Shown: positions 3,200 to 16,045 of the stretch, in pieces | Layout: each line of letters starts with the position of its first letter | How positions within the stretch are numbered: the first letter of the stretch is position 1 | Assembly: GCF_024464595.1 (NCBI RefSeq) | Contig: NZ_JANHAW010000001.1 | Location: 885,083 to 949,082, forward strand | Source of the DNA: Halobellus litoreus | GTDB taxonomy: Archaea > Halobacteriota > Halobacteria > Halobacteriales > Haloferacaceae | Length of the DNA: 64,000 nucleotides | Reading direction: 5' to 3' | The notes under the pieces: generated by a model | Told to the model about the DNA's origin: nothing | The model's input: only the letters and a program-made list of their open reading frames with translations | The model's database searches: none | Made by a program: the position numbers and the translations under genes

Positions 3200-6100
3200 C
3201 TATTCAGTACCGGTTTCGACACCCGTAATCTCGAAGCGCGCCCCCCCAGCAGTTCCCTCAGTGAGTGTAATCTCCCATCCGTGCGCTTCAGCGACGTCCT
3301 TGATGATACTCAGACCAAACCCAGTTCCGTCCGGTGAGGTCGAGTAGCCCACCTCGAAGACCTCTTCACGAGCGTCTTCTGGAATTCCGGGTCCATCATC
3401 CTCGATATAGAATCCGTTATCCAGATCCCCAACACGAACGGTTACATCTTCTCCCCCGTGTTCGATGGCATTCCGAAATAGGTTTTCCAAGAGTTGACAC
3501 AGTCGGTCATAGTCCGCCTCAATCGTTTGGAGTCCAGTCTGCTTTGGAATACGAAATTCAGCATCAGTACTTTCGTCTTCGATCATCGTCCAAGCCGACT
3601 CGACAGCCTCGTTCAAATCCACAGACGCTGTCGATCCGATGACCTGCCCTTCACGAAGCAACCACAACATATCCTCAATAATTCGCTCCATCCGGTCGAG
3701 TGCGCTGTCGGCCACGTCCAGATTCTCACTCTCGAACTCCTCGTGAGCGAGCGTTAGTCGCCCGCGAGCGATATTCAGCGGATTGCGAAGATCGTGAGAG
3801 ACGACACGGGCAAACTCTTCGAGCCGTTCGTTTTGCCGTTCGATCTCCCGCTCATACGCTCTCTGGTCGGTTACGTCCCTGAAGTACACCGAGACACCGC
3901 TTGTCGATGGATAAATCGTCGCTTCAACGCGGAAATCCAGGGGGTCATAATACACCTCGTAGCTCTGCGGAACCTGGGTCTCCATCGCTGTATGAAACGC
4001 ATCCCGCACCTTGTCGAGGTTGGCAGCCTCCGGATACTGCTCCCACAACTTCTCACCGAGAAGTTCCTCTTCGGATGCCTGGAGTAGCTCTTCAGCACGG
4101 TCGTTTACGTGGCTGAAGCGTAAGTCGTCATCAAGTGCATAGAACGCGTCAGTCACCCGGCCGAGAATCTCTGACAATCTCGTCTCCAGTTCGCGCTGTT
4201 CAGTGATATCCTCGAACGCGAAGATCGCTTGCTGTATATCTCCATCGTCGTCCCACTGTAGGGCTCCGTTCACTGAGGCCCACACACGGTCTCCAGATGG
4301 CTGGCGAAGGCCAACAACCTGATCGTATATCGGTTCCTCTTGGGAGATCACCCGATCGAACGGTGTGGTACCTGTTTCGAGGGGTTCTCCATCCTCATCG
4401 ACCAGTCCCCAGCGGGAATCATCGTGCGTGAAGTCGTTGATTTCCTCGCTGGATCGTCCATAGATCGCTTCGGCCCGCTCGTTGACGAATGCAAGCGTCC
4501 CATCCGCATCGATGACGGTGATACCGATCGGACTGGTTTCGACGATTCCTTCGACGAGATCCCGCTCCTGTTGGAGTTCTTTTTTGTTCTCTTTGTACTC
4601 GGTAATATCCTGGACTGCGCCCCGGAGCGTGGCAACCTCACCACCCTCAACGGTCGGGGTTCCTTGGACACGGAGCCAGCGGATCTCGCCGCCCGGTCGC
4701 TGGATCCGTACTTCAACGTCGAATGGCTCCCCCGAATCGAGTGCGTCTTCGACGGCTCTTTCGACGATCTGACGGTCGTCCTCGTGGTAGACAGCCAGCG
4801 CCTCGTCCAACGATGGCTCTTCGTCGGTATCGACTCCGAGGATCTCGAAGAGGTTCTCGCTCCAGAACACGTCCATCGTTCCGGTATCGATCTCCCAGCC
4901 CCCAACGTCAGCAATCCGCTCCGTGTGTTCGAGTAATTCTTCTGTCCGCTCGAGTTCCTGTTCGCGCTCTTTGCGGTCGGTGATGTCCTGAATGAACCCC
5001 CGAACCGTCCGCGGTTCCTCGTTACCAAGCACCTTGCCCCGCACTCGGACCCATCGCTGGTTGTCCTGGGCAGTAATCAGACGAAGTTCTTGATCGAACG
5101 ACTCGCCATTCTCAAGTGCGGTTTCGACTGCCTGCTCGATTGCCTCTCGATCCTCGGGGTGGTAGAACTCGATAGCTTGTTCGATAGTTGGGGTGAATCC
5201 GTCGTTGACCTCGTGAATACGGCGGGTGCCGTCCGTCCACACGTGGGCGCCGTCCGCGTCGAACTCCCAGGCACCGAGGCTCCCGAGGTCTTCGGCTTCT
5301 CTGAAGAACTCACGCATTCGTTCGAGCTCCTGTTCGCGTTCCTTTCGATCGGTAATGTCGTGCACCACGCCGATCATCCGCGTGGTTCCATCTGCACCGA
5401 CGACGGTTTTTCCCGGCGCCTCGATCCACCGCACCTCGTCGTCGACGATGATCCGGAGTTCCTCGTGTTTGTCCTCGCCAGATTCCAATGCCTGCCGTAC
5501 CGATTCGCGGGCTTGTTGACGGTCCTCGGGGTGGATTACCTCAAGAAAGTCCTGACTGGTCTGGACGCTCGTCCCGTACAGCTCTGTTTCGGTTGGATAG
5601 AACGTCGCTTCATCTGCATCCACGTCCCACTCCCAGACGATAGTCTCGGTCGCCTCGAGCGCAAACTCCATCCGTTCTTTCGTCTGTTGGAGTTCGCGTT
5701 GGCGACTGCGCTCCTCGGTCACGTCCCGTCCGATCAGTAGATGCTGCCCAGGGACGACATCAGGTGATGCCGAGTATTCCATCACGTATTCGTCCCCCTC
5801 CGTGTCACTCAACTTGATAATCTCTTGCTGCTCTTGCAGGAGTTCATCGAGTAAATCGGTCTGCTCAGTATCTGTAGTGATGAAATCCTGTATGTAGCGT
5901 CCGACGAGTTCCTCCGGGTCGATTCCGGCCACTTCGGCAGCCCGTTCGTTACGTTCGATGATTCGGCCATCATCGTCAACGACCACGATCGCCTCGAATG
6001 CAGCATCGAAGACCTGTCTGAATTTGTCGTACTCCGTTTGGAATTGGTCGTCGGAACCGGGTGTCGTCAGGTCCGGCGTTGTACGGGGAAGTGAGATGGT

Positions 6101-7228
6101 CACTGTCGTTCCTTCAGCGGAAACGTCAGTATCGATGTCGCCGTCGTGTTTCGTAACAATCGTGCGGGCGATCCAATGGCCTAACCCCATACTGTGGACG
6201 AGTGGTGTTTCGGTGCCTTCAGCGATGACGGCCTGTTCCTCTTCTGGGATCCCTGGTCCATCATCCTGAATGCTGACCGTCACGACCTCGTCGGTTCCGG
6301 TTACCTTGACAGAGATATCGGGTGTTTCTCCGGCGTATTCGGCTGCGTTCTCGATGATTTCTCGAATGGCGAGTGGGAGTGTTGGCCGTGCAAAATAGTC
6401 GATCGACTCGGGGATATCGACTGTAATGGATGCTGCTGGGACTTGGTCTGCTATGTCGGCGACTATTTGTCTGATTTCGCGTGTTAACTCAACAGTTCGT
6501 CGGTCGGATGATTCTTGTAGAATCTGTTCGAGTTTCCGTGCTTCTTCGCTGAGATTGAGTACCTCATCCACAGCGTCGATCGCTGCATCAGATGACAGGC
6601 CCTGGCTGGATTGCTGAGGTTGGGCGTTCAAATAACCTTTCACGATGGAAAGTTTGTTGCGGATATTGTGTCTGAGCACCCGTGTTAACACGGATACTAT
6701 CTCCGAAGATTCGTTGAGGTCCGCCTCATATTTCGACTCGACAATTTCGTTTTCGATGAATCGGGCAAGAAGTTCCAAGAAGAATGCTTCCTCGGGGTCA
6801 AATGACTCCCGGGCATCTTGTCCAACAAAACAGACGCTTCCAGAGATCTCATCGCCTTCGTACAACGGTGTTCCGAAATACGAGGTGATATCGAGGGTTT
6901 GATACGCAGGATCATTCTCAAGTCCTTGCTCAGTCGCGTTATGAACCATCAACGACGAGCCGTCTTTGACGACGCGGCGACAGTACGTGTTCGACAGATC
7001 GAGTGTCGTCCCCTCGGAGAACTGGCCGTCGTCTTTATCCGTGCTAACGATTGCCTCCCACGTGTTTCCCTCTTCGTACGTCCGTACGACGAGACCAGTG
7101 TCGACATCTAGATACGCCGAGCCTATGTCGAGTGCTCGCTCGATTTTTTCTTCTGCCGGCTGGTCGGCTGTCATAAGCTGTTGTAGGATGGTGCCGAGCG
7201 TCCCCGTGTCGTGATTTTGAATATCCAT
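3200..7228 (-). CDS. Very large multi-sensor kinase: GAF, transmitter, six PAS, second transmitter
   Basis: A soluble 1342-residue protein. Order: GAF domain (about 1-170, with TYCRRVVKDG); a first kinase module with RHNIRNKLS (phospho-acceptor H187), ENAAEYA, DDGPGIP (322-328) and MGLGHW; then six PAS/PAC units ending at about residues 510, 628, 754, 880, 1010 and 1124, most closed by ITDRKEREQEL-like linkers; then a second kinase module with SHDLRNPL (H1145), FRNAIEHGG, DDGPGIP (1277-1283) and GTGFGLS. PAS units 2-4 are alike in sequence, suggesting internal duplication. There are no membrane segments and no response regulator nearby. The input signal cannot be read from sequence; PAS and GAF domains in such kinases usually bind small ligands, haem or flavin. 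Base composition is more A+T-rich than neighbouring genes. Confidence 0.93.
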   Translation of the reverse strand: MDIQNHDTGTLGTILQQLMTADQPAEEKIERALDIGSAYLDVDTGLVVRTYEEGNTWEAIVSTDKDDGQFSEGTTLDLSNTYCRRVVKDGSSLMVHNATEQGLENDPAYQTLDITSYFGTPLYEGDEISGSVCFVGQDARESFDPEEAFFLELLARFIENEIVESKYEADLNESSEIVSVLTRVLRHNIRNKLSIVKGYLNAQPQQSSQGLSSDAAIDAVDEVLNLSEEARKLEQILQESSDRRTVELTREIRQIVADIADQVPAASITVDIPESIDYFARPTLPLAIREIIENAAEYAGETPDISVKVTGTDEVVTVSIQDDGPGIPEEEQAVIAEGTETPLVHSMGLGHWIARTIVTKHDGDIDTDVSAEGTTVTISLPRTTPDLTTPGSDDQFQTEYDKFRQVFDAAFEAIVVVDDDGRIIERNERAAEVAGIDPEELVGRYIQDFITTDTEQTDLLDELLQEQQEIIKLSDTEGDEYVMEYSASPDVVPGQHLLIGRDVTEERSRQRELQQTKERMEFALEATETIVWEWDVDADEATFYPTETELYGTSVQTSQDFLEVIHPEDRQQARESVRQALESGEDKHEELRIIVDDEVRWIEAPGKTVVGADGTTRMIGVVHDITDRKEREQELERMREFFREAEDLGSLGAWEFDADGAHVWTDGTRRIHEVNDGFTPTIEQAIEFYHPEDREAIEQAVETALENGESFDQELRLITAQDNQRWVRVRGKVLGNEEPRTVRGFIQDITDRKEREQELERTEELLEHTERIADVGGWEIDTGTMDVFWSENLFEILGVDTDEEPSLDEALAVYHEDDRQIVERAVEDALDSGEPFDVEVRIQRPGGEIRWLRVQGTPTVEGGEVATLRGAVQDITEYKENKKELQQERDLVEGIVETSPIGITVIDADGTLAFVNERAEAIYGRSSEEINDFTHDDSRWGLVDEDGEPLETGTTPFDRVISQEEPIYDQVVGLRQPSGDRVWASVNGALQWDDDGDIQQAIFAFEDITEQRELETRLSEILGRVTDAFYALDDDLRFSHVNDRAEELLQASEEELLGEKLWEQYPEAANLDKVRDAFHTAMETQVPQSYEVYYDPLDFRVEATIYPSTSGVSVYFRDVTDQRAYEREIERQNERLEEFARVVSHDLRNPLNIARGRLTLAHEEFESENLDVADSALDRMERIIEDMLWLLREGQVIGSTASVDLNEAVESAWTMIEDESTDAEFRIPKQTGLQTIEADYDRLCQLLENLFRNAIEHGGEDVTVRVGDLDNGFYIEDDGPGIPEDAREEVFEVGYSTSPDGTGFGLSIIKDVAEAHGWEITLTEGTAGGARFEITGVETGTE

Positions 7229-7459: not shown

Positions 7460-8869
7460 TCAGTCGGAGGCAGACCGCACACCGGACAGCAGCGAAGCCG
7501 CCTCGAAGTCCATATCGAGTCGCTCCTCGACGCCGAGCAGTTCCGCGATCGTCGGCGCCACGGCCCGCGCGTCGACCGGGCCGTCGATCACCCGGCGATC
7601 CGGAGCGGCGGGGCCGCCGAGTCCGTACACTCCCAGCGTCTCCTCGTCCACGCGTCCGTGAGACCCCCCGATCCGTGTCGGGTCGAGCGAGGTCAGTCCG
7701 GCGTCGCCGACGAAGAGTTCGCACGGGTCGAAGCCGGGTTTGGCGTGGATGTCCATCTCTGTGGCGTACGACGGGGCCGCGTCGTGGCCGTCCCACCAGT
7801 AGTACTGGAACCAGGCGTCGGGTTCGGCGACCAGCACGAGGTCGCCCGCGTTCGCGTGATCGACGTCGCGGGCCGCCTTGCCGCGGTCGTCCAGCACCTC
7901 GGCCACGCCGTCGAGCGCTTCGACCGTCTCGCGGACGTCGGCGAGCACGTCCGAATCGGCGTACACGTGGGCGATCTGGTGGTCGACCATCGCGAAGGCC
8001 GACGAGCGCGCGAGGTCGACCTCCTCGCCGCCGCTGCCGTCGTCGGTCACCGAGAGCAGCCCCGCCTCACGGAGCGCGCGGTTGGGGACGACGGGCGTAT
8101 CGACCGGATGGAAGCCGTACTCGCTGACGACGTTCACGGCCGTCTCGGCCCAGCGCTCGCCGCCGCGGAGGAACGACAGGAACGACCCGAGTAGTTCGTC
8201 GACTGTTTCGAGCGCCGCGTCGGTCTCCGGCGCGTCGGGGCCGTGCCGCTGCGCGTCGTAGTCGAGGTGGGGGACGTACACCCAGAGCAGGTCCGGGTCG
8301 TACCGTTCGATCGCCTCGCGGGCGGCGGTTAGAATCCACTCGCTGCTTCCCTCGTCGGCCGCCGGCCCCCAGTAGTTATGCAGTGGGAAGTGACCGTGCT
8401 CGGCCTCCAGTTCGTCGTAGAAGCCGTCGGGATTGGTCCAGCAGTTCATCTCGAGGAGGTTGTTGTCCTCGTCTTCGATCGGCGAGGGCGTCACCGCGAC
8501 GTCGGCGCTCGTCCCGACGAGGTGCTGGAAGAACAGCACGCCGGTGGTGAGACCGGCGTCGGCGGCGGCCTCCCAGATGCGGGTGCGGTCGCCCCGGTCG
8601 CGCTCCCAGAAGGCCACCGCGTCGGCGTCGCGGTCGTACTCGCCGTTCGCCACGTCGCCGTGGGCCGTCGGCGAGCGTCCGGTCGCAAGCGTGGTCTGGG
8701 CCGGAACCGTGACCGCGGGGAACGGCGGCCGGAGGTCGGCCGTCGTCGCCTCGGGTAACAACTCGGTCAGGTTCGGCGCGCGGCCGTCGCCGAGGTGGTC
8801 GCGCTGGAGGCCGACGACGTCGAGGACGACGACGCGCTCGGCCGCGGTCGGTTCCCCGGTCGCGGTCAT
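7460..8869 (-). CDS. Alkaline-phosphatase-superfamily phosphodiesterase, EboF-like
   Basis: 469 residues of the type I phosphodiesterase/nucleotide pyrophosphatase family. N-terminal VVVLDVVGL supplies the metal-binding Asp (D17); FPAVTVPAQTTLATGRSPT (from residue 50) holds the nucleophile-type Thr (T54). Further metal-site motifs are VYVPHLDYDAQRHGPDAPE, VVSEYGF and GSHGRVDEETLGVYGLG. No signal peptide is visible, so a cytosolic protein acting on a phosphodiester metabolite is likely. The ATG overlaps the stop of the inositol-phosphate synthase gene by four bases (ATGA), so the two are co-transcribed. In bacteria a homologue (EboF) is part of the ebo cluster. The exact substrate is unknown. 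Confidence 0.88.
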   Translation of the reverse strand: MTATGEPTAAERVVVLDVVGLQRDHLGDGRAPNLTELLPEATTADLRPPFPAVTVPAQTTLATGRSPTAHGDVANGEYDRDADAVAFWERDRGDRTRIWEAAADAGLTTGVLFFQHLVGTSADVAVTPSPIEDEDNNLLEMNCWTNPDGFYDELEAEHGHFPLHNYWGPAADEGSSEWILTAAREAIERYDPDLLWVYVPHLDYDAQRHGPDAPETDAALETVDELLGSFLSFLRGGERWAETAVNVVSEYGFHPVDTPVVPNRALREAGLLSVTDDGSGGEEVDLARSSAFAMVDHQIAHVYADSDVLADVRETVEALDGVAEVLDDRGKAARDVDHANAGDLVLVAEPDAWFQYYWWDGHDAAPSYATEMDIHAKPGFDPCELFVGDAGLTSLDPTRIGGSHGRVDEETLGVYGLGGPAAPDRRVIDGPVDARAVAPTIAELLGVEERLDMDFEAASLLSGVRSASD

Positions 8870-10074
8870 TCGACGGCCGCCTCCCTCGCGTGGCGGTCGA
8901 CGTACTCGTCCAGAAGCGCGAACTGCCGGGAGAGGTCGTGCTCGTCGACGCCGAGCGGAGCCTTGAAGAACGACGCGAGGTGGCGCTGGAGACCGCCCTC
9001 GCCGCGCTCGTCGGCGTGCGCGATCAGACGCACGAGATCGAGCACGAGGGGTGCGGCCAGCGCCGAGTCCGACCCCTCCCACGTGAACTGCAGCTTCATC
9101 TCGGTGTTCAGGAAGCCCTCGAAGTGGACGTAGTCCCAGGCGGTCTTCCAGTCGTCCAGCGACGGCGTGTAGTCGATGCGGACCCGGTTGTGCTCGAGGT
9201 CGGGCAGGATGGAGTCGAGGACACCCCCCTTACTCGCCAGTTTGCCGGCCTTGTTGGCCTCGTCTTCGAGGACCCGGCCGTCGTCGTTGCCGAGGATGTT
9301 GTGGCCCTCCCACGACCGCACGCGGAGGTTCCGCCCGGCGAACATCGGCGCGAGCGCCGACTTGACGAGCGTCTCGCCCGTCTTGGCGTCCCGGCCCGTG
9401 TGCGGAACGTCCCGGTCCTCGGCGAGTTCCCGGAGGCCGCCGAGCGCCGAGCCGGTGCTCGGCGTGAAGTTGACGTACGGGTGTTCGTCGACGAGCGCGG
9501 CGTACGCGTAGAGGGCGCTCGCGGGGAGGTCGCGGTCGTCGTTGGCCACCGCGCGCTCGAACGCCTCGCGCGTGTCGTACTGGTCGGGATCGTCCAACGG
9601 CGGTTCGGTCGAGGCGACGTTCACCACCACGACGCGATCGAGGTCGTGATTCCTGCGAAACGCCCGATAGTCGTCTCGGATGCGGTCGACGACCTCGCTC
9701 ACGGGAAGCCGATCGTCGAGTGACCCCCGATCGGCGAGGTCGTCGACCGAGGCCCCGCAGTTTATCGCGGCGCCCATCGCGATACGCCGGTCGACGCGAC
9801 GGAGGTCCTCGGCCACCGCCTGGACGGTGTCCGGACTCGGGACGCCGTTCGACGAGAGGTCCCGCGCCGTCTCCAGGAGGCTTCGCTCCCGGATGTCGTG
9901 GCCGCCGAAGACGAGGTCCCCGACGTCGGGGAGTGCCAGTCGCGAGTACGGTTCCCGCGCCGTCACCAGACCGGTCGTGTCAGTTTCGCCGTGGGCCAGT
10001 GCACGCGCTCCCGCGATCGCCGTGGTCGCGACGTTCCCGCGCGCGCCGATCAACCAGACTCCTGTGCTTGTCAT
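8866..10074 (-). CDS. Inositol-3-phosphate synthase family protein
   Basis: 402 residues. The N-terminus GVWLIGARGNVATTA is a Rossmann NAD-binding loop; GRDAKTGETLVKSALAPMF and the EGHNILGNDDG segment are signatures of the myo-inositol-1-phosphate synthase family, which turns glucose-6-phosphate into inositol-3-phosphate with internal NAD recycling. Halobacteria may use inositol phosphate for archaetidylinositol lipids, but the link to UbiA, TatD and TIM-barrel genes here points to a variant of the enzyme in a secondary metabolite route. The ATG at MTSTG is preferred over an upstream in-frame start, because the NAD loop begins five residues later. Upstream is a triple 31-base repeat with TATA-like cores. 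Confidence 0.9.
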   Translation of the reverse strand: MTSTGVWLIGARGNVATTAIAGARALAHGETDTTGLVTAREPYSRLALPDVGDLVFGGHDIRERSLLETARDLSSNGVPSPDTVQAVAEDLRRVDRRIAMGAAINCGASVDDLADRGSLDDRLPVSEVVDRIRDDYRAFRRNHDLDRVVVVNVASTEPPLDDPDQYDTREAFERAVANDDRDLPASALYAYAALVDEHPYVNFTPSTGSALGGLRELAEDRDVPHTGRDAKTGETLVKSALAPMFAGRNLRVRSWEGHNILGNDDGRVLEDEANKAGKLASKGGVLDSILPDLEHNRVRIDYTPSLDDWKTAWDYVHFEGFLNTEMKLQFTWEGSDSALAAPLVLDLVRLIAHADERGEGGLQRHLASFFKAPLGVDEHDLSRQFALLDEYVDRHAREAAVE

Positions 10075-10108
10075 AAGCGTGAGCGTCTCTTGTCGAACTA
10101 TCCACATT

Positions 10109-10201
10109 GTTATGCCACGTCTGAACGGGACAGTCAGCAGTTATACGGCGGCTGAACGGGACGGTCGATCGTTATACGGCGGCTGAGCGGGGCAGAGAAA
10201 C
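10109..10201. repeat. Three tandem 31-base repeats in a divergent promoter region
   Basis: Three units of exactly 31 bases begin at 10109, 10140 and 10171. Units two and three share GTTATACGGCGGCTGA; unit one is more diverged (GTTATGCCACGTCTGAACGG). Each unit carries GTTAT(A), which reads as a TATA-like ATAAC on the minus strand. They lie between the inositol-phosphate synthase start and the TatD start, so they may bind a shared regulator or offer several promoter cores. Confidence 0.75.
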
Positions 10202-10327
10202 TGACAGGGTGCAAAGGAGTCAAACCCTCCGGAGTGTTCGTTACTGGCCTTCTCGTTTCGGTTTACCTTTTCGAGCTCAATCGAAGGAGACTCATAACGA
10301 AGTACGAACTGATTGACACGTAATTCG

Positions 10328-11128
10328 ATGCGTATAATCGATCCGCATATGCACATGGTGTCGCGGTCGAGCGAAGACTACCGCCGTGCCCGACGCGCGG
10401 GAATCGAGTGCTGTATCGAGCCGGCGTTCTGGAGCGGGACCGACAAACGGCACGCGGGTTCGTTCTTCGACTACTTCGAGCACATCACCGACTTCGAGAC
10501 CGAGCGCGCCGAGCGCGCGGCCGGGATGGACCACTACGTCACCATCGGACTCGAACCCAAGGAGGCGAACTACGCGGAGATGGCCGAGAAAGTGATGGAG
10601 CGCATCCCCGAGTTCCTCGACCGCGAGAACGTGGTCGGCGTCGGCGAGATCGGCCTCGATCAGGGGACCGAGGCCGAGGAGTACGCGTTCCGCAAGCAGC
10701 TCCGGATGGCCGAGGAGCGCGAACTTCCCGTCATCGTCCACACGCCCCACGAGAACAAGCCGGAGGGGACCGAGCGGCTCGTCGAGATGATCCAGGAGGA
10801 AGACGTCACCGAGGAGCGGATCATCATCGATCACAACACGGAGAACACCATCGACACCAGCCTACAGACCGACTGCTGGGTCGGCTTCACCCTCTACCCC
10901 GGCAAGATCGAGGACGAGACGGCCATCGACTTACTCGAGGAGTACGGTACCGACAAGATGATCCTCAACAGCGCGGCCGACTGGGATCCCTCGAACCCGC
11001 TGGCGGTGCCGATGGCCCGAGACAAGATGATCGATCGTGGCTGGGACCGCGAGGCGGTCCGCAAGGTCGTCTTCGAGAACCCCTACGAGTTCTTCGACCA
11101 GTCGCCCAACTTCGACTACGAGCCCTGA
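10328..11128 (+). CDS. TatD-family metal-dependent hydrolase, EboB-like
   Basis: 266 residues of the amidohydrolase-type TIM barrel. Metal ligands typical of TatD are visible: DPHMHM (H7, H9), GEIGLD (E107), IVHTPH (H138), IIDHN (H169) and SAADWD (D218). TatD proteins are generally DNases, but this branch is found in ebo-like clusters (EboB) where a nucleic-acid substrate is unlikely. The ATG at MRIIDPHMH is chosen because the first metal motif follows at once; a TTG five codons earlier is an unlikely start. It begins a rightward run of four genes; the next gene starts one base after the stop codon. Confidence 0.88.
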   Translation: MRIIDPHMHMVSRSSEDYRRARRAGIECCIEPAFWSGTDKRHAGSFFDYFEHITDFETERAERAAGMDHYVTIGLEPKEANYAEMAEKVMERIPEFLDRENVVGVGEIGLDQGTEAEEYAFRKQLRMAEERELPVIVHTPHENKPEGTERLVEMIQEEDVTEERIIIDHNTENTIDTSLQTDCWVGFTLYPGKIEDETAIDLLEEYGTDKMILNSAADWDPSNPLAVPMARDKMIDRGWDREAVRKVVFENPYEFFDQSPNFDYEP

Positions 11129-11962
11129 ATGCCTATGCGATTCGCCTTCTCAGCCAACGCGTTCCAGGCGTACGACCCGGGAGAGACCGTCGAGATTCTG
11201 GGCGACATCGGGTACGAGGGCGTGGAACTGCTGTTCGGCGCGTCGCACCTTCACCCGGCCGATACCGACGCGGAGGACGTCGCCGCGGTCGAGAACGCGC
11301 TCGACGACGCCGGCCTCGAGATCAGCAACTGCAACGCGTTCATGGTGACAGCAGAGGATTTCCAGCACCCCTCCTACGTCGAGACCGATCCCCAGTATCG
11401 CCAGCAGCGCATCGACTACACCCGCGAGTCGCTCCGCCTGGCCGACGCGTTCGGGGCCGACTCGATCTCCATCCAGCCGGGCGGTCCCGTGCCGGCGGGC
11501 AAGTCCCGGGAGTGGGCGATGGAGACGTTCGCGGAGGGGATGCGATCGGTCGCACAGACCGCAGAAGAGCTGGGCGTCGACGTGCTGATCGAACCCGAGC
11601 CGGATCTGCTGATCGAGACGACCGATCAGTACCTCGACATCGAGGGTCGGATCGACTCCGGTGCCGTCGGCTGCAACTTCGACGCGGGACACCTCTTCTG
11701 CGTCGGCGAGGATCCCGCCGAGGCCGTCGGACGGCTCGCGGAGCGCACGCCGCACTACCACCTGGAGGACATCCCGGCCGACCGCACGCACGAACACACG
11801 CAGCTGGGCGACGGCGCGATGGACGTCGACGGATTTCTCGAGGCGGTCGAGGAGACGGGCTACGAGGGGTTCGTCACCGTCGAGTTGTACCCGTACCAGG
11901 AGACCGCCGAGGAGACGGCCCGCGAGGCGTACGAGTACCTCGAAGCGCACGGGTGGGTCTGA
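11129..11962 (+). CDS. Sugar-phosphate isomerase/epimerase-like TIM-barrel protein, EboE-like
   Basis: 277 residues of the xylose isomerase-like/AP endonuclease 2 fold. It begins MRFAFSANAFQAY and has NCNAFMV, the metal-site segments VLIEPEPDLLI, VGCNFDAGHLF and HYHLEDI, and a C-terminal GYEGFVTVELYPY. These Glu/Asp/His positions bind a divalent metal in the family. No sugar substrate can be named. The ATG follows the TatD stop directly; an ATG two codons later (11135) is an equally good start. It is about 40% similar by eye to the second barrel protein of this cluster, so the two are probably paralogues. Confidence 0.85.
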   Translation: MPMRFAFSANAFQAYDPGETVEILGDIGYEGVELLFGASHLHPADTDAEDVAAVENALDDAGLEISNCNAFMVTAEDFQHPSYVETDPQYRQQRIDYTRESLRLADAFGADSISIQPGGPVPAGKSREWAMETFAEGMRSVAQTAEELGVDVLIEPEPDLLIETTDQYLDIEGRIDSGAVGCNFDAGHLFCVGEDPAEAVGRLAERTPHYHLEDIPADRTHEHTQLGDGAMDVDGFLEAVEETGYEGFVTVELYPYQETAEETAREAYEYLEAHGWV

Positions 11963-11969
11963 TCGCGCG

Positions 11970-12908
11970 ATGACGTACTCCCGACGCGGGACCGGCCGCG
12001 TGCGACGTACCACGGCCGCGTACGCCGAGTTGGTTCGCGTCCCCAACCTCTTCACCGCGCCGCCGGACGTGATCGCCGGGGCAGCGCTCGCCGTCGCCGC
12101 GGGCGGCGCGGTCGCGCTCCCGGCCGTCGCCGGCGTGGCCGCCGCGTCGGTACTGCTCTACGCCGCCGGGACGGCGCTCAACGATTTCTTCGACGCGCCC
12201 GTCGATGCCGAGGAACGCCCGGAGCGGCCGATCCCCGCCGGCCGGGTCCCTCGCTCGGCCGCCGGCGCTCTCGGGGGCGTGTTACTGCTCTGTGCGGTGC
12301 TCCTCGCGGCCGCAACCGCCGGGGCCGACGCCGGAATCGGCGCGGTCGCGGTCGCGGCGGCGGTCGTCGGGTACGACGGCGCGCTGAAGGGCGGACCGGC
12401 GGGCTTTCTGGCGATGGGCGCGGCGCGCGGACTGAACGTCCTGCTCGGGACGACGGCCACCGACGTCCCGGTGGCGTCCCTCCCACCGTGGGCGCTCGCC
12501 GTCCCGGTCGCGGTCGCCGCGTACGTCGCGGGCGTGACGCTTGTGGCCGCCGACGAAGCGACCGGCGCGACCCGGCGGTCAGTGGTCGTCGCGGGCGGCG
12601 GCGCGGGCGTCGCCGGGGCGGTCGCGGTGACGCTCCTCGCGACAGTGGGCCCCACTGCCAGCGTACTGGCCGTGGGCGTCGGCGTCGCGCTCGCGCTCGG
12701 ATTCCTCGCCGTGACGGGACGAGCGCTGGCGCGGGCCTACCGCGACCCGTCGCCGGGGACGGTCGGGCCCGTCATCGGAACGTGCGTACTCGCGCTCGTC
12801 GTCCTCGATTCTGCCGTCGCGGCCGTCGCCGGCGTCGGGTGGACGCTGGCCACGGTCGCGTTCCTCGGCCCCGCGGTCGGACTGGCGCAACTGTTCGACG
12901 TCTCGTAA
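11970..12908 (+). CDS. UbiA-family prenyltransferase, EboC-like
   Basis: A 312-residue integral membrane protein with eight or nine hydrophobic segments. The first Asp-rich motif is NDFFDAPVD (residues 71-79), followed by EERPERPIPAG, which is the NDxxDxxxD...RP signature that binds Mg2+ and the prenyl diphosphate. The second polar loop is YDGALKGGPAGFLAMGAARG, less Asp-rich than in UbiA or digeranylgeranylglyceryl-phosphate synthase. This matches the EboC branch. It should transfer an isoprenoid to, or otherwise handle, a small-molecule acceptor in the membrane. The gene starts eight bases after the preceding stop. Confidence 0.88.
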   Translation: MTYSRRGTGRVRRTTAAYAELVRVPNLFTAPPDVIAGAALAVAAGGAVALPAVAGVAAASVLLYAAGTALNDFFDAPVDAEERPERPIPAGRVPRSAAGALGGVLLLCAVLLAAATAGADAGIGAVAVAAAVVGYDGALKGGPAGFLAMGAARGLNVLLGTTATDVPVASLPPWALAVPVAVAAYVAGVTLVAADEATGATRRSVVVAGGGAGVAGAVAVTLLATVGPTASVLAVGVGVALALGFLAVTGRALARAYRDPSPGTVGPVIGTCVLALVVLDSAVAAVAGVGWTLATVAFLGPAVGLAQLFDVS

Positions 12909-13026
12909 CGAGGAGATACCAGATGTACCTGAGACACGTGATTCATCGAACCGGAGTCGACTCAACGACGCACAGACGAGTATCCGCGGCAGCTGGCCCC
13001 GTCGACGGGCTCGGAGGGGTGGGGTG

Positions 13027-13875
13027 ATGGTCGAGTTAGCCTTCTCGACGAACGCCTACACCGAGTACGCGCTCCCGGAGGCGATCCGCCGCATCGACGC
13101 CCACGGCTACGACGGCGTCGAGATCCTCGGCGACGACCCGCACGCCTACTTCCCGGCGTTCGACGACGGCGACGAACGCGCGGTGTGCGACGCCCTCGCG
13201 GAGACCGGCCTGTCGGTGTCGAACGTCAACGCGAACACGGCGATGGGCTACTACGACGACGCGCCGCCCTCGGCGTTCTTCGAACCGAGCGTCATCACCG
13301 ACGACGAGGCGGCCCGCGAGTGGCGCGTCGAGTACACGAAGCGCGCCGTCGACCTCGCGGAGGTCGTGGGGTCGCCCGCGGTCTGTCTCGCGACCGGACG
13401 ACCGCTCGCCGGCAACCCGCCGGAACGCGCCCGGGAGTACCTCCGCGCGTCGCTCCGCGAGATCCTCGACTACGCGGAGCCCCGGGGCGTCGACGTCGGC
13501 ATCGAGTTCGAACCGGAACTACTCGTCGAGTGCACCGACGAGGCGCTGGCCCTGATAGACGACGTCGGCCGAGAGTCGCTGGGAATCAACCTCGACGTCG
13601 GGCACGCGGCCGTCTACGGGGAAGACCTCGCGGAGACCATCCACCGGAGCGCGGGCCACATCACCGGCGTGCACTTAGAGGATATCGTCGGCGGCCGCCG
13701 GGGCAAGCACTACCACCGGGTCCCCGGCGAGGGCGACCTCGACTTCCGAGCCGTCTTCGACGCGCTGGACGACGTCGGCTACGAGGGGTTCGTCACCCTC
13801 GAGCTGTACACGTATTCGCACGAGCCCGATCGGGCCGCCGAACGCGCGTACGAGGAACTGGCGCAGTACTGCTGA
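13027..13875 (+). CDS. Second sugar-phosphate isomerase/epimerase-like TIM-barrel protein
   Basis: 282 residues, starting at ATG (a GTG directly before it is in frame). It has LAFSTNAYTEYALPEAI, NVNANTAMGYY, the metal-site segments VGIEFEPELLVE, LGINLDVGHAAVYG and GVHLEDIVGG, and a C-terminal GYEGFVTLELYTYSHE. It parallels the other barrel protein of the cluster along its length. The two could act on successive sugar-phosphate or inositol-phosphate intermediates, or form a heteromer. About 120 bases separate it from the UbiA gene, so it may also have its own promoter. Confidence 0.84.
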   Translation: MVELAFSTNAYTEYALPEAIRRIDAHGYDGVEILGDDPHAYFPAFDDGDERAVCDALAETGLSVSNVNANTAMGYYDDAPPSAFFEPSVITDDEAAREWRVEYTKRAVDLAEVVGSPAVCLATGRPLAGNPPERAREYLRASLREILDYAEPRGVDVGIEFEPELLVECTDEALALIDDVGRESLGINLDVGHAAVYGEDLAETIHRSAGHITGVHLEDIVGGRRGKHYHRVPGEGDLDFRAVFDALDDVGYEGFVTLELYTYSHEPDRAAERAYEELAQYC

Positions 13876-14089: not shown

Positions 14090-16045
14090 ATGGCTGTCCG
14101 GTCCCCACGAGAACAGCTGTACGAGGTGTTCGCGGACACCTCTCGGGAGACGGCGGACAAGATCGAAGCGGCTCTGGAAGTCGGGACCGACTACCTGGAG
14201 ATTCCGATCGGGTTCTTCACGCGGATCGACGACGGCACGCAGGAGGTCGTCCACGCCGCGGGCGGACACCACCTGATTCAACCCGGGGAGTCGTGTCCGC
14301 TGCGCGATGCGTACTGCCGTCGGACGATCGAGATCGACGCGCCGCTCGCGGTGCAGGACGTGAGCGATTCGCAGATTCACCAGCGCGCCGTCGACACGTT
14401 CGGTCTCGGGGCGTACATCGGCGCGAAGGTCACCGTCGACGACGAGCTGTACGGGACGGTCTGTTTCGCCGACTACGACCAGCGCGAGGAGCCCTTCTCC
14501 GAGGCCGAGGAACTGTTCTTGGAACTGCTGGCGAACCTCGTCGGGAGCGCGCTCGAACGGCGCGCCTACCAGCAGGACTTACGCGACCGGAACGAGCGGC
14601 TCGAACGCGAAAAGCAGCGCTTTCAGGGGATCGCGGAGAACAGCTTCGACATCCTGTTTCGGGTGGGCGCGGACGCCCGTTTCACGTACGTCTCCTCGGC
14701 GGTCGAGCGGGTGCTCTCCTACCGCCCCGAAGAACTCGTCGGCGAGTACTTTCAGGAGTTTATGACCGACGCCGCGGCCGAGACGGCCGCCGCCGCCTAC
14801 TCACGAGTCGTCGACGGGGAACCGGTCGAGAGCCTCGAACTCGACTTCCTCGACCGCTCCGGCGAGGTCGTGGTCCTGGAGGTCAACGCGACGCCGACCA
14901 CGACGGACGGCGAGATCGACGGCATCCAGGGCGTCGGCCGCGACGTCACCGCACGGAAGGAGCGGCAGCGGGAACTCGAAATGAAGACGCGCGCGATCGA
15001 CGAGGCGGCCGTTGGCATCTCGCTGGCGGATATGCAGCGGCCGGACGAACCGTTGGTCTACATCAACGAGGGGTTCGAGCGCCTCACGGGCTATGCGGCG
15101 TCGGCGGTGCTCGGTCGCAACTGCCGGTTCCTCCAGGGCGAACAGACGGATCCCGAGGCTGTCGCCAGCCTCCGCGAGGCGATCGGCGACGAGACGACGG
15201 CGTCGGTCGAACTCGTCAACTACCGGCGCGACGGGACGCCGTTCTGGAACCGCGTCCAGCTCAGCCCGGTGTTCGACGACGACGGGAGGCTCACGCACTA
15301 CCTCGGGTTTCAGAACGACGTCACCGAGCGCAAGCGGACGGCGCAACTGATCAGACTGCTCAACCGGGTGCTTCGGCACAACCTGCGGAACGACATGACC
15401 GTGCTCTCGGGGACCGGCCGCCTGCTCCGCGACGGCGACGCCGACGACGTGGCCGCCCTCGGCGAACGGATCGAGCGCATCTCCACGGCGCTCGTCGAAC
15501 TCAGCGAGCACGCCCGGCGGCTGGAACGCTACGCCCGGAGGGACCGCGAGCCTCGACGGCTCGACCCGCGTGAACTGACGGCCGAGGTTGTCGAGGCCCA
15601 CCGCGAAACCGTCCCGAACGTGTCCATCGACGTTGACGTTCGAACCGAGCGGGCGATCTGTGCGGGAAGGGAACTCCGAGAGGGGCTCTCGGAGCTCGTC
15701 GAGAACGCGATCAAGCACAATCCGACGGCGGAGCCGCGAGTGCGGATCTCGGTCGTCGACGACGGTGAGCTGATCGAAGTCGTCGTCGCCGACGACGGAC
15801 CGGGGATCACGGAGATGGAAGCCGACGTCGTGTCGACGGGGCGGGAGACGCCGCTCGAACACGGCTCCGGGTTGGGGCTGTGGCTCGTCAACTGGATCGT
15901 CACCAGGTACGGCGGCTCGTTTCAGATCGACGCGGACGGGCCCGACGGGAACGGCGGCACGACGGCGACGGTCCGGCTCCCGGCCCTCGGGCCGGACGAC
16001 GCCGTCGCGGACGCGGAACGCGGTCCGACGCTTCTCTTCTTCTGA
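14090..16045 (+). CDS. LOV-domain (blue-light) histidine kinase with GAF and PAS domains
   Basis: A soluble 651-residue kinase. GAF (about 10-155, with SCPLRDAYCRR), PAS (about 175-290), a LOV-type PAS (about 298-414), then a kinase module with RVLRHNLRND (H430), ENAIKHN (538-544), DDGPGI (568-573) and GSGLGLW (592-598). The LOV domain has the full flavin photocycle set: GRNCRFLQG with adduct-forming C345, VNYRRDGTPFWN with N377 and N387, and YLGFQND with Q408. Such domains bind FMN and form a cysteinyl adduct in blue light. No response regulator is adjacent. A leaderless promoter and a 22-base repeat precede the gene. It follows the ebo-like cluster in the same direction. The final codons lie in a 27-base tandem duplication. 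Confidence 0.94.
   Translation: MAVRSPREQLYEVFADTSRETADKIEAALEVGTDYLEIPIGFFTRIDDGTQEVVHAAGGHHLIQPGESCPLRDAYCRRTIEIDAPLAVQDVSDSQIHQRAVDTFGLGAYIGAKVTVDDELYGTVCFADYDQREEPFSEAEELFLELLANLVGSALERRAYQQDLRDRNERLEREKQRFQGIAENSFDILFRVGADARFTYVSSAVERVLSYRPEELVGEYFQEFMTDAAAETAAAAYSRVVDGEPVESLELDFLDRSGEVVVLEVNATPTTTDGEIDGIQGVGRDVTARKERQRELEMKTRAIDEAAVGISLADMQRPDEPLVYINEGFERLTGYAASAVLGRNCRFLQGEQTDPEAVASLREAIGDETTASVELVNYRRDGTPFWNRVQLSPVFDDDGRLTHYLGFQNDVTERKRTAQLIRLLNRVLRHNLRNDMTVLSGTGRLLRDGDADDVAALGERIERISTALVELSEHARRLERYARRDREPRRLDPRELTAEVVEAHRETVPNVSIDVDVRTERAICAGRELREGLSELVENAIKHNPTAEPRVRISVVDDGELIEVVVADDGPGITEMEADVVSTGRETPLEHGSGLGLWLVNWIVTRYGGSFQIDADGPDGNGGTTATVRLPALGPDDAVADAERGPTLLFF

Follow-up and report, generated by a model that had tools for sequence, protein, structure and literature searches.

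What does a compact, divergent set of six genes in the haloarchaeon Halobellus litoreus make, and is it a form of the bacterial ebo operon? The genes lie at positions 7460-13875 of a 64,000-nucleotide stretch of contig NZ_JANHAW010000001.1 (the window), whose host genome is haloarchaeal and spans 3.86 Mb. They encode a phosphodiesterase-like protein (PDE), an inositol phosphate synthase (INO1), a TatD-family hydrolase (TatD), a UbiA-superfamily prenyltransferase (UbiA) and two xylose-isomerase-like barrels. We find that these genes constitute a discrete unit that is inherited jointly. The set is not a canonical ebo operon, because it lacks EboA, EboD and EboE; it shares the EboB, EboC and EboF components of such operons and probably their logic. 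The features, with the best start taken for each open reading frame (ORF), are as follows.

7460..8869, minus strand: PDE, an EboF-like protein of the alkaline phosphatase superfamily (469 residues; PF01663, 182 bits; Thr54)
8866..10074, minus strand: INO1, myo-inositol-1(3)-phosphate synthase (402 residues; PF07994 and PF01658, 170 and 113 bits)
10075..10327, no strand: divergent intergenic spacer of 253 bp, putatively with two promoters
10328..11128, plus strand: TatD, an EboB-like TatD-family metal-dependent hydrolase (266 residues; PF01026, 70 bits)
11129..11962, plus strand: barrel 1 (TIM1), xylose-isomerase-like (277 residues; PF01261)
11970..12908, plus strand: UbiA, an EboC-like UbiA-superfamily prenyltransferase (312 residues; PF01040, 67 bits)
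13027..13875, plus strand: barrel 2 (TIM2), xylose-isomerase-like (282 residues; PF01261)

All six ORFs were confirmed on these strands, and every Pfam assignment exceeds its curated cut-off, with PF01261 scores of 149 and 151 bits for the two barrels. PDE and INO1 share 4 nt (ATGA), barrel 1 begins directly after TatD, and the remaining gaps are 7 nt between barrel 1 and UbiA and 118 nt between UbiA and barrel 2. The locus is thus organized as an initial annotation had described it, a divergent set of six genes with overlapping or abutting starts.

A conserved six-gene unit

Strong UbiA matches (at least 195 bits) occur in 27 of the 242 genomes of the same class, the haloarchaea, that made up our survey sample. 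The next best match scores 59 bits, a level that corresponds to background from other UbiA enzymes. INO1 is strongly matched in 28 of the genomes; 27 of these also carry the UbiA, none has UbiA only and a single one (G208) has INO1 only. This co-occurrence has a Fisher p of about 6e-35 when the relatedness of the 242 genomes is ignored. All six genes fall within 20 kb in 25 of the 27 UbiA-bearing genomes, with the window counted, so their arrangement is not due to chance. A lack of conserved co-occurrence, which the initial annotation had named as grounds for its rejection, is not seen.

Gene order is nearly constant as well. The F-INO1 arm (PDE and INO1) diverges from the B-TIM1-C-TIM2 arm (TatD, barrel 1, UbiA and barrel 2) in 24 of the 25 genomes with the complete set. 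The six genes occupy a single strand in G183 (locus L058), and barrel 2 is shifted by a few genes in four genomes. Of the two UbiA-bearing genomes outside these 25, G020 retains only B-TIM1-C and has its INO1 elsewhere, and G209 has two copies of the cluster, broken by contig ends (L037/L038 with L153/L154). Barrel 2 of one of these copies (L037, 8646-9492) matches in several frames, which indicates either a frameshift or poor sequencing.

The six families are present in 28-32 of 32 haloarchaeal loci, and any other neighbour family is found in at most nine; higher counts in the neighbour tally are antisense ORFs that overlap the six genes themselves. Pairwise protein distances among the six correlate at 0.63-0.89, in agreement with joint inheritance. 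The cluster is patchily distributed, with several copies on plasmids of 240-530 kb.

Some flanks contain genes of sugar metabolism, which raises the possibility that the six genes are part of an island for sugar or cyclitol utilisation. Gfo/Idh oxidoreductase, pyrroloquinoline quinone (PQQ) sugar dehydrogenase, DUF1080, ThuA and sugar ABC transporter genes are found next to the cluster at loci L223, L067 and L224, and the barrels are similar to sugar epimerases and to proteins of the IolI type. However, none of these flanking genes is conserved across loci, INO1 acts in biosynthesis, and it is hard to see what an intramembrane prenyltransferase would do in a catabolic pathway. We therefore regard a utilisation island as very unlikely.

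In the window itself, large sensor-kinase-like ORFs with GAF/PAS-type sequence lie on both flanks, at 3200-7228 (minus strand) and 14090-16045 (plus strand). The divergent spacer holds three head-to-tail copies of a 31-bp direct repeat at 10109-10201, and a sister genome (locus L032) has a single copy. Read toward INO1, the repeats place CATAAC or TATAAC 40, 71 and 102 nt upstream of its start. A CATAAC element also stands 35 nt upstream of TatD, matching the one 40 nt upstream of INO1, and this arrangement is common only to the closest relatives. In three genomes it had seemed to be a general promoter signal of the cluster, but only 3-4 of 31 loci have it ahead of TatD or INO1, and it was dropped as such.

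Relationship to EboB, EboC and EboF

TatD is 42-44% identical to three bacterial EboB proteins in full-length comparisons over 264 residues, and its metal-site residues and those typical of the EboB family are invariant. The haloarchaeal proteins form a sister group of the EboB proteins from planctomycete INO1 clusters (support 83; long branches). These features place TatD in the EboB lineage. EboB-like TatD genes with no other ebo gene nearby are also present in many Planctomycetes and Verrucomicrobia (L080-L100 and others).

PDE belongs to the EboF lineage. Across about 380 residues, it is 46% identical to the protein in the EboF position of Streptomyces and 37-42% identical to bacterial EboF, as against a score of about 44 bits with the best solved nucleotide pyrophosphatase/phosphodiesterase (NPP). 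It shares the motifs PHLDY, SEYG, DHQxAHVY and GSHG with bacterial EboF. Two of its features are an EboF signature: the SDHG of NPP enzymes is replaced by SEYG, and the HxDxxxH region has no second His. Thr54 occupies the nucleophile position, which agrees with the T54-type nucleophile that had been assigned to this protein.

The UbiA protein scores 168.5 bits with the NCBIfam model for SCO3242 (NF045897; curated cut-off 260 bits) and 163.8 bits with that for EboC (equivalog cut-off 250), and the next UbiA family reaches 58 bits. It is therefore not a member of the SCO3242 family by this measure and also falls short of the EboC equivalog. In the tree it lies within the bacterial EboC clade, with a 100/100 split from haloarchaeal digeranylgeranylglyceryl phosphate (DGGGP) synthases. 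As in bacterial EboC, the first Asp motif and the R of MGxxRGLN are present and the second Asp motif is lost. The predicted structure (pLDDT 91.3, a model confidence score) has DGGGP synthase and Aeropyrum UbiA as its nearest folds. On this evidence UbiA is assigned to the EboC lineage even though the NCBIfam cut-off is missed. A position in an unrelated branch, which the initial annotation had named as grounds for rejecting the ebo relationship, is thus not what the tree shows.

The likeness to ebo could in principle be superficial, with common enzyme families assembled independently. UbiA, TatD, NPP-like and xylose-isomerase-like proteins do form large families, and the NCBIfam cut-offs for both EboC and EboE are missed. 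That explanation is nevertheless hard to credit, given the 100/100 placement of UbiA, the 37-46% identity and common family motifs that tie TatD and PDE to EboB and EboF, and the existence of intermediate operons in Actinobacteria, Gemmatimonadota and Planctomycetes. The relation to ebo that the initial annotation had proposed thus holds through the EboB, EboC and EboF homologues, on the combined testimony of trees, motifs and gene order.

Missing ebo genes and the two barrels

EboA (NF035938) has no match in this genome, in seven other cluster-bearing haloarchaea or in three planctomycetes, and all four positive controls were detected at 133-151 bits. EboD (PF01761) is likewise lacking from the whole genome; 11 of 14 control genomes contain a match. 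The barrels score 18-26 bits with the EboE model (NF035939), far below its cut-off of 250 and the 404-470 bits of the positive controls, and canonical EboE was not found. The proposal of a reduced ebo set without EboA and EboD is correct in this respect, but EboE must be added to the missing genes.

EboE, a barrel of about 380 residues, forms a separate clade (support 100) that excludes both haloarchaeal barrels. The barrels are instead predicted to be ketose-epimerase-type enzymes. The AlphaFold model of barrel 1 (pLDDT 92.7) has ketose 3-epimerases, AsbF and IolI as its best PDB matches. Residues E155, E157, D185, H188, H211 and E252 are kept in 30 of 30 haloarchaeal copies of barrel 1 and in essentially all copies of barrel 2, and they correspond to the metal and catalytic residues of D-tagatose 3-epimerase. 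Outside the haloarchaea, the closest relatives of barrel 1 are planctomycete cluster barrels (L196; support 93). Barrel 2 falls in one group (support 98) with the small barrels found in the INO1-type clusters of planctomycetes, Actinobacteria and Gemmatimonadota.

INO1 in the place of EboD

The INO1 family converts glucose-6-phosphate to myo-inositol phosphate. The haloarchaeal protein aligns with Archaeoglobus INO1 (1u1i) at 293 bits, and its lysines K278, K282, K310 and K371, the equivalents of the Archaeoglobus catalytic lysines, are invariant in all 42-43 scorable homologues. With NAD-binding and catalytic domains and these lysines in place, it is predicted to be a genuine synthase, and it is the only INO1 in the genome. 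Members of the same clade also occur in haloarchaea outside the cluster, on Halomarina plasmids (L221 and L222) and in G208 (L151). The stand-alone Halomarina genes adjoin glycosyltransferases and a Gfo/Idh oxidoreductase.

This enzyme might simply provide the inositol headgroup for archaetidylinositol, an ordinary polar lipid, with its neighbours being ancillary. Inositol-headed polar lipids have been discussed for haloarchaea, the Haloferax volcanii homologue HVO_B0213 is listed among polar-lipid genes (PMC8305020), and INO1 has this role in methanogens (as cited in PMC8305020). On the other hand, INO1 is limited to about 12% of the haloarchaea surveyed and practically always accompanies UbiA, whereas high conservation is reported for the candidate archaetidyltransferase operon. 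The 32 loci share no recurring CDP-alcohol transferase, and UbiA, TatD and the barrels would be left without a role. Headgroup supply is thus an unlikely explanation of the cluster.

The same combination of INO1 with EboB, EboC and EboF homologues and short xylose-isomerase-like barrels, without EboD, is found beyond haloarchaea and defines an INO1-type ebo-like cluster. The planctomycete locus L196 has the order INO1-B-TIM1-C-TIM2-F in one direction, and L207 has a five-gene form. Streptomyces plasmids carry INO1-prenyltransferase-barrel-EboA-EboB (TatD)-EboE-EboF (PDE). Comparable sets from Nonomuraea and Gemmatirosa contain the six families that were scored in them, INO1, a barrel, EboB, EboC, EboE and EboF. 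The cluster is consequently not an archaeal variant as had been supposed, since planctomycetes share all six genes and INO1-type operons with EboE exist in Actinobacteria and Gemmatimonadota, those of Actinobacteria also having EboA. In the tree that includes Archaeoglobi, the INO1 proteins of haloarchaea, planctomycetes and Actinobacteria group at 88/93. A single INO1 clade for all such clusters, which was seen without Archaeoglobi, disappeared once they were added and is not claimed.

EboD-type operons from Azospirillum, Aureibacter and Mycetohabitans lack INO1, and EboD stands in them where Streptomyces operons carry INO1. In an EboB scan that gave about 80 bacterial loci, and in further planctomycete loci, the two were never found together. 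INO1 and EboD, which are non-homologous sugar-phosphate cyclases, therefore appear to fill one slot. The initial annotation had suggested that either inositol phosphate or the second barrel replaces EboD; the first alternative is the one retained, as the barrels keep epimerase-type sites. Both enzymes would make a cyclitol from a sugar phosphate, and their interchange suggests that a cyclitol is the building block shared by the two types of cluster.

Two further observations concern bacterial INO1 genes. Directly upstream of a Streptomyces plasmid cluster (L060, 3817-5016) is a ScyD/ScyE-family gene, which recalls the setting of the scytonemin genes in cyanobacteria. A different INO1 system occurs in Bacteroidota and Alphaproteobacteria such as Hymenobacter and Roseomonas (L217, 5854-12480; L218, 5995-13173; L216, 6013-12921), where INO1 is accompanied by a Gfo/Idh oxidoreductase, a YcaO-like protein, a metallo-beta-lactamase (MBL) hydrolase or methyltransferase, and a short barrel. 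Identity of this barrel with that of the Streptomyces ebo cluster is 48-52%, and 49-52% for Hymenobacter and Roseomonas, and the system thus provides an independent link between INO1 and a short barrel.

Proposed function

The reading that we favour, with a probability of about 0.52, is that the cluster makes a prenylated cyclitol lipid by way of INO1 and that this lipid acts in the movement of metabolites, either as a carrier or as a cofactor. INO1 would cyclise glucose-6-phosphate to myo-inositol phosphate, and the barrels, possibly with TatD, would remodel the cyclitol or the corresponding keto compound, by epimerisation or in some other way. The EboF-like enzyme may act on the phosphate. 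UbiA could then join an isoprenoid to the cyclitol in the membrane, and by analogy with the Nostoc ebo genes the resulting lipid might move other metabolites across it. What the cluster makes, which prenyl donor it uses and its part in export are all matters of inference.

An isoprenoid-cyclitol product was proposed for ebo by Yurchenko et al., whose main text mentions neither inositol nor haloarchaea (PMC5133447), and the exchange of INO1 for EboD supports that idea. Such a compound could instead be an end product, for instance a protectant, antioxidant or antimicrobial, that has no transport function. This would agree with the original ebo proposal (PMC5133447) and with the patchy, often plasmid-borne occurrence of the cluster, as seen with accessory metabolites. 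However, each ebo deletion tested in Nostoc left the scytonemin monomer trapped in the cytoplasm, so that its movement and not its synthesis was stopped (PMC6282210), and a pure end product is distinctly unlikely.

Several points weigh against a prenylated cyclitol carrier. EboF proteins retain the Thr nucleophile, yet several of the metal ligands that are canonical in NPP enzymes are gone: SDHG has become SEYG, Gln replaces the His that follows HLD, and the first Asp varies. Phosphodiester hydrolysis therefore cannot be assumed, and the phosphodiesterase annotation of EboF-like proteins may be wrong. Nor can standard prenyl transfer be assumed for an EboC-type UbiA, in which the second Asp-rich motif known from DGGGP synthase is missing. 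In vitro, an EboC homologue from bacteria attached farnesyl groups to quinolines, and cyclitol acceptors were not reported there (PMC9235831). The barrels would require a keto substrate, and neither a conserved dehydrogenase nor a conserved transporter is among the recurring neighbours at the 32 haloarchaeal loci. Finally, the haloarchaeal UbiA clade is not the specific sister of other INO1-type clades, and the Gemmatimonadota INO1 copies lie nearer to Archaeoglobi, with moderate support.

More tentatively, EboD and INO1 could share one ancient pathway slot across archaea and several bacterial phyla, in which case all ebo systems might make isoprenoid-linked cyclitols that act as unrecognised membrane carrier lipids. 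To our knowledge, the ebo product has remained unknown since 2016. The natural swap of EboD for INO1, whose family reaction is well defined, would narrow ebo chemistry to a cyclitol and offers a concrete labelled precursor to trace. The swap likewise brings Archaea into the range of ebo-like systems, and in Haloferax both gene knockouts and lipidomic analysis are routine. H. volcanii, one of our control genomes, has an INO1 match and is the only control to match the EboE barrel model, as cluster-bearing haloarchaea do. Because of this barrel match and its INO1 (HVO_B0213; PMC8305020), H. volcanii is a likely host of the cluster. Nothing that connects ebo with inositol, or haloarchaea with UbiA and INO1, was found in the open-licence literature.

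Comparison with known systems

The ebo operon (eboABCDEF) of Bacteroidota, Cyanobacteria and eustigmatophyte plastids resembles the haloarchaeal set in its EboB, EboC and EboF homologues and in being a compact conserved cluster. The haloarchaeal set differs in lacking EboA, EboD and EboE, in having INO1 and two short barrels, and in its divergent layout. The EDB cluster of Pseudomonas fluorescens NZ17 contains ebo genes, and mutants disrupted in them have a phenotype (PMC6282210), but it is EboD-type and includes EboA and EboE. The archaeal pathway to archaetidylinositol, with DGGGP synthase, has in common the UbiA fold and a myo-inositol phosphate building block, although in this genome the DGGGP-synthase-like gene is distinct from UbiA, being a paralogue that falls outside the EboC clade.

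The INO1-type systems of bacteria are closer. In the actinobacterial SCO3242-type cluster, INO1 also replaces EboD and is accompanied by a short barrel and by EboB, EboC-type and EboF proteins, but EboA and EboE are kept, there is one short barrel instead of two, and the genes form a single directon. The planctomycete L196 operon is unidirectional, and the metagenome assembly shows one in-frame stop in its INO1 (about 5277-6458). It nonetheless contains the same six families with the B-TIM1-C-TIM2 order, and its TIM1 and EboB are the closest to those of haloarchaea.

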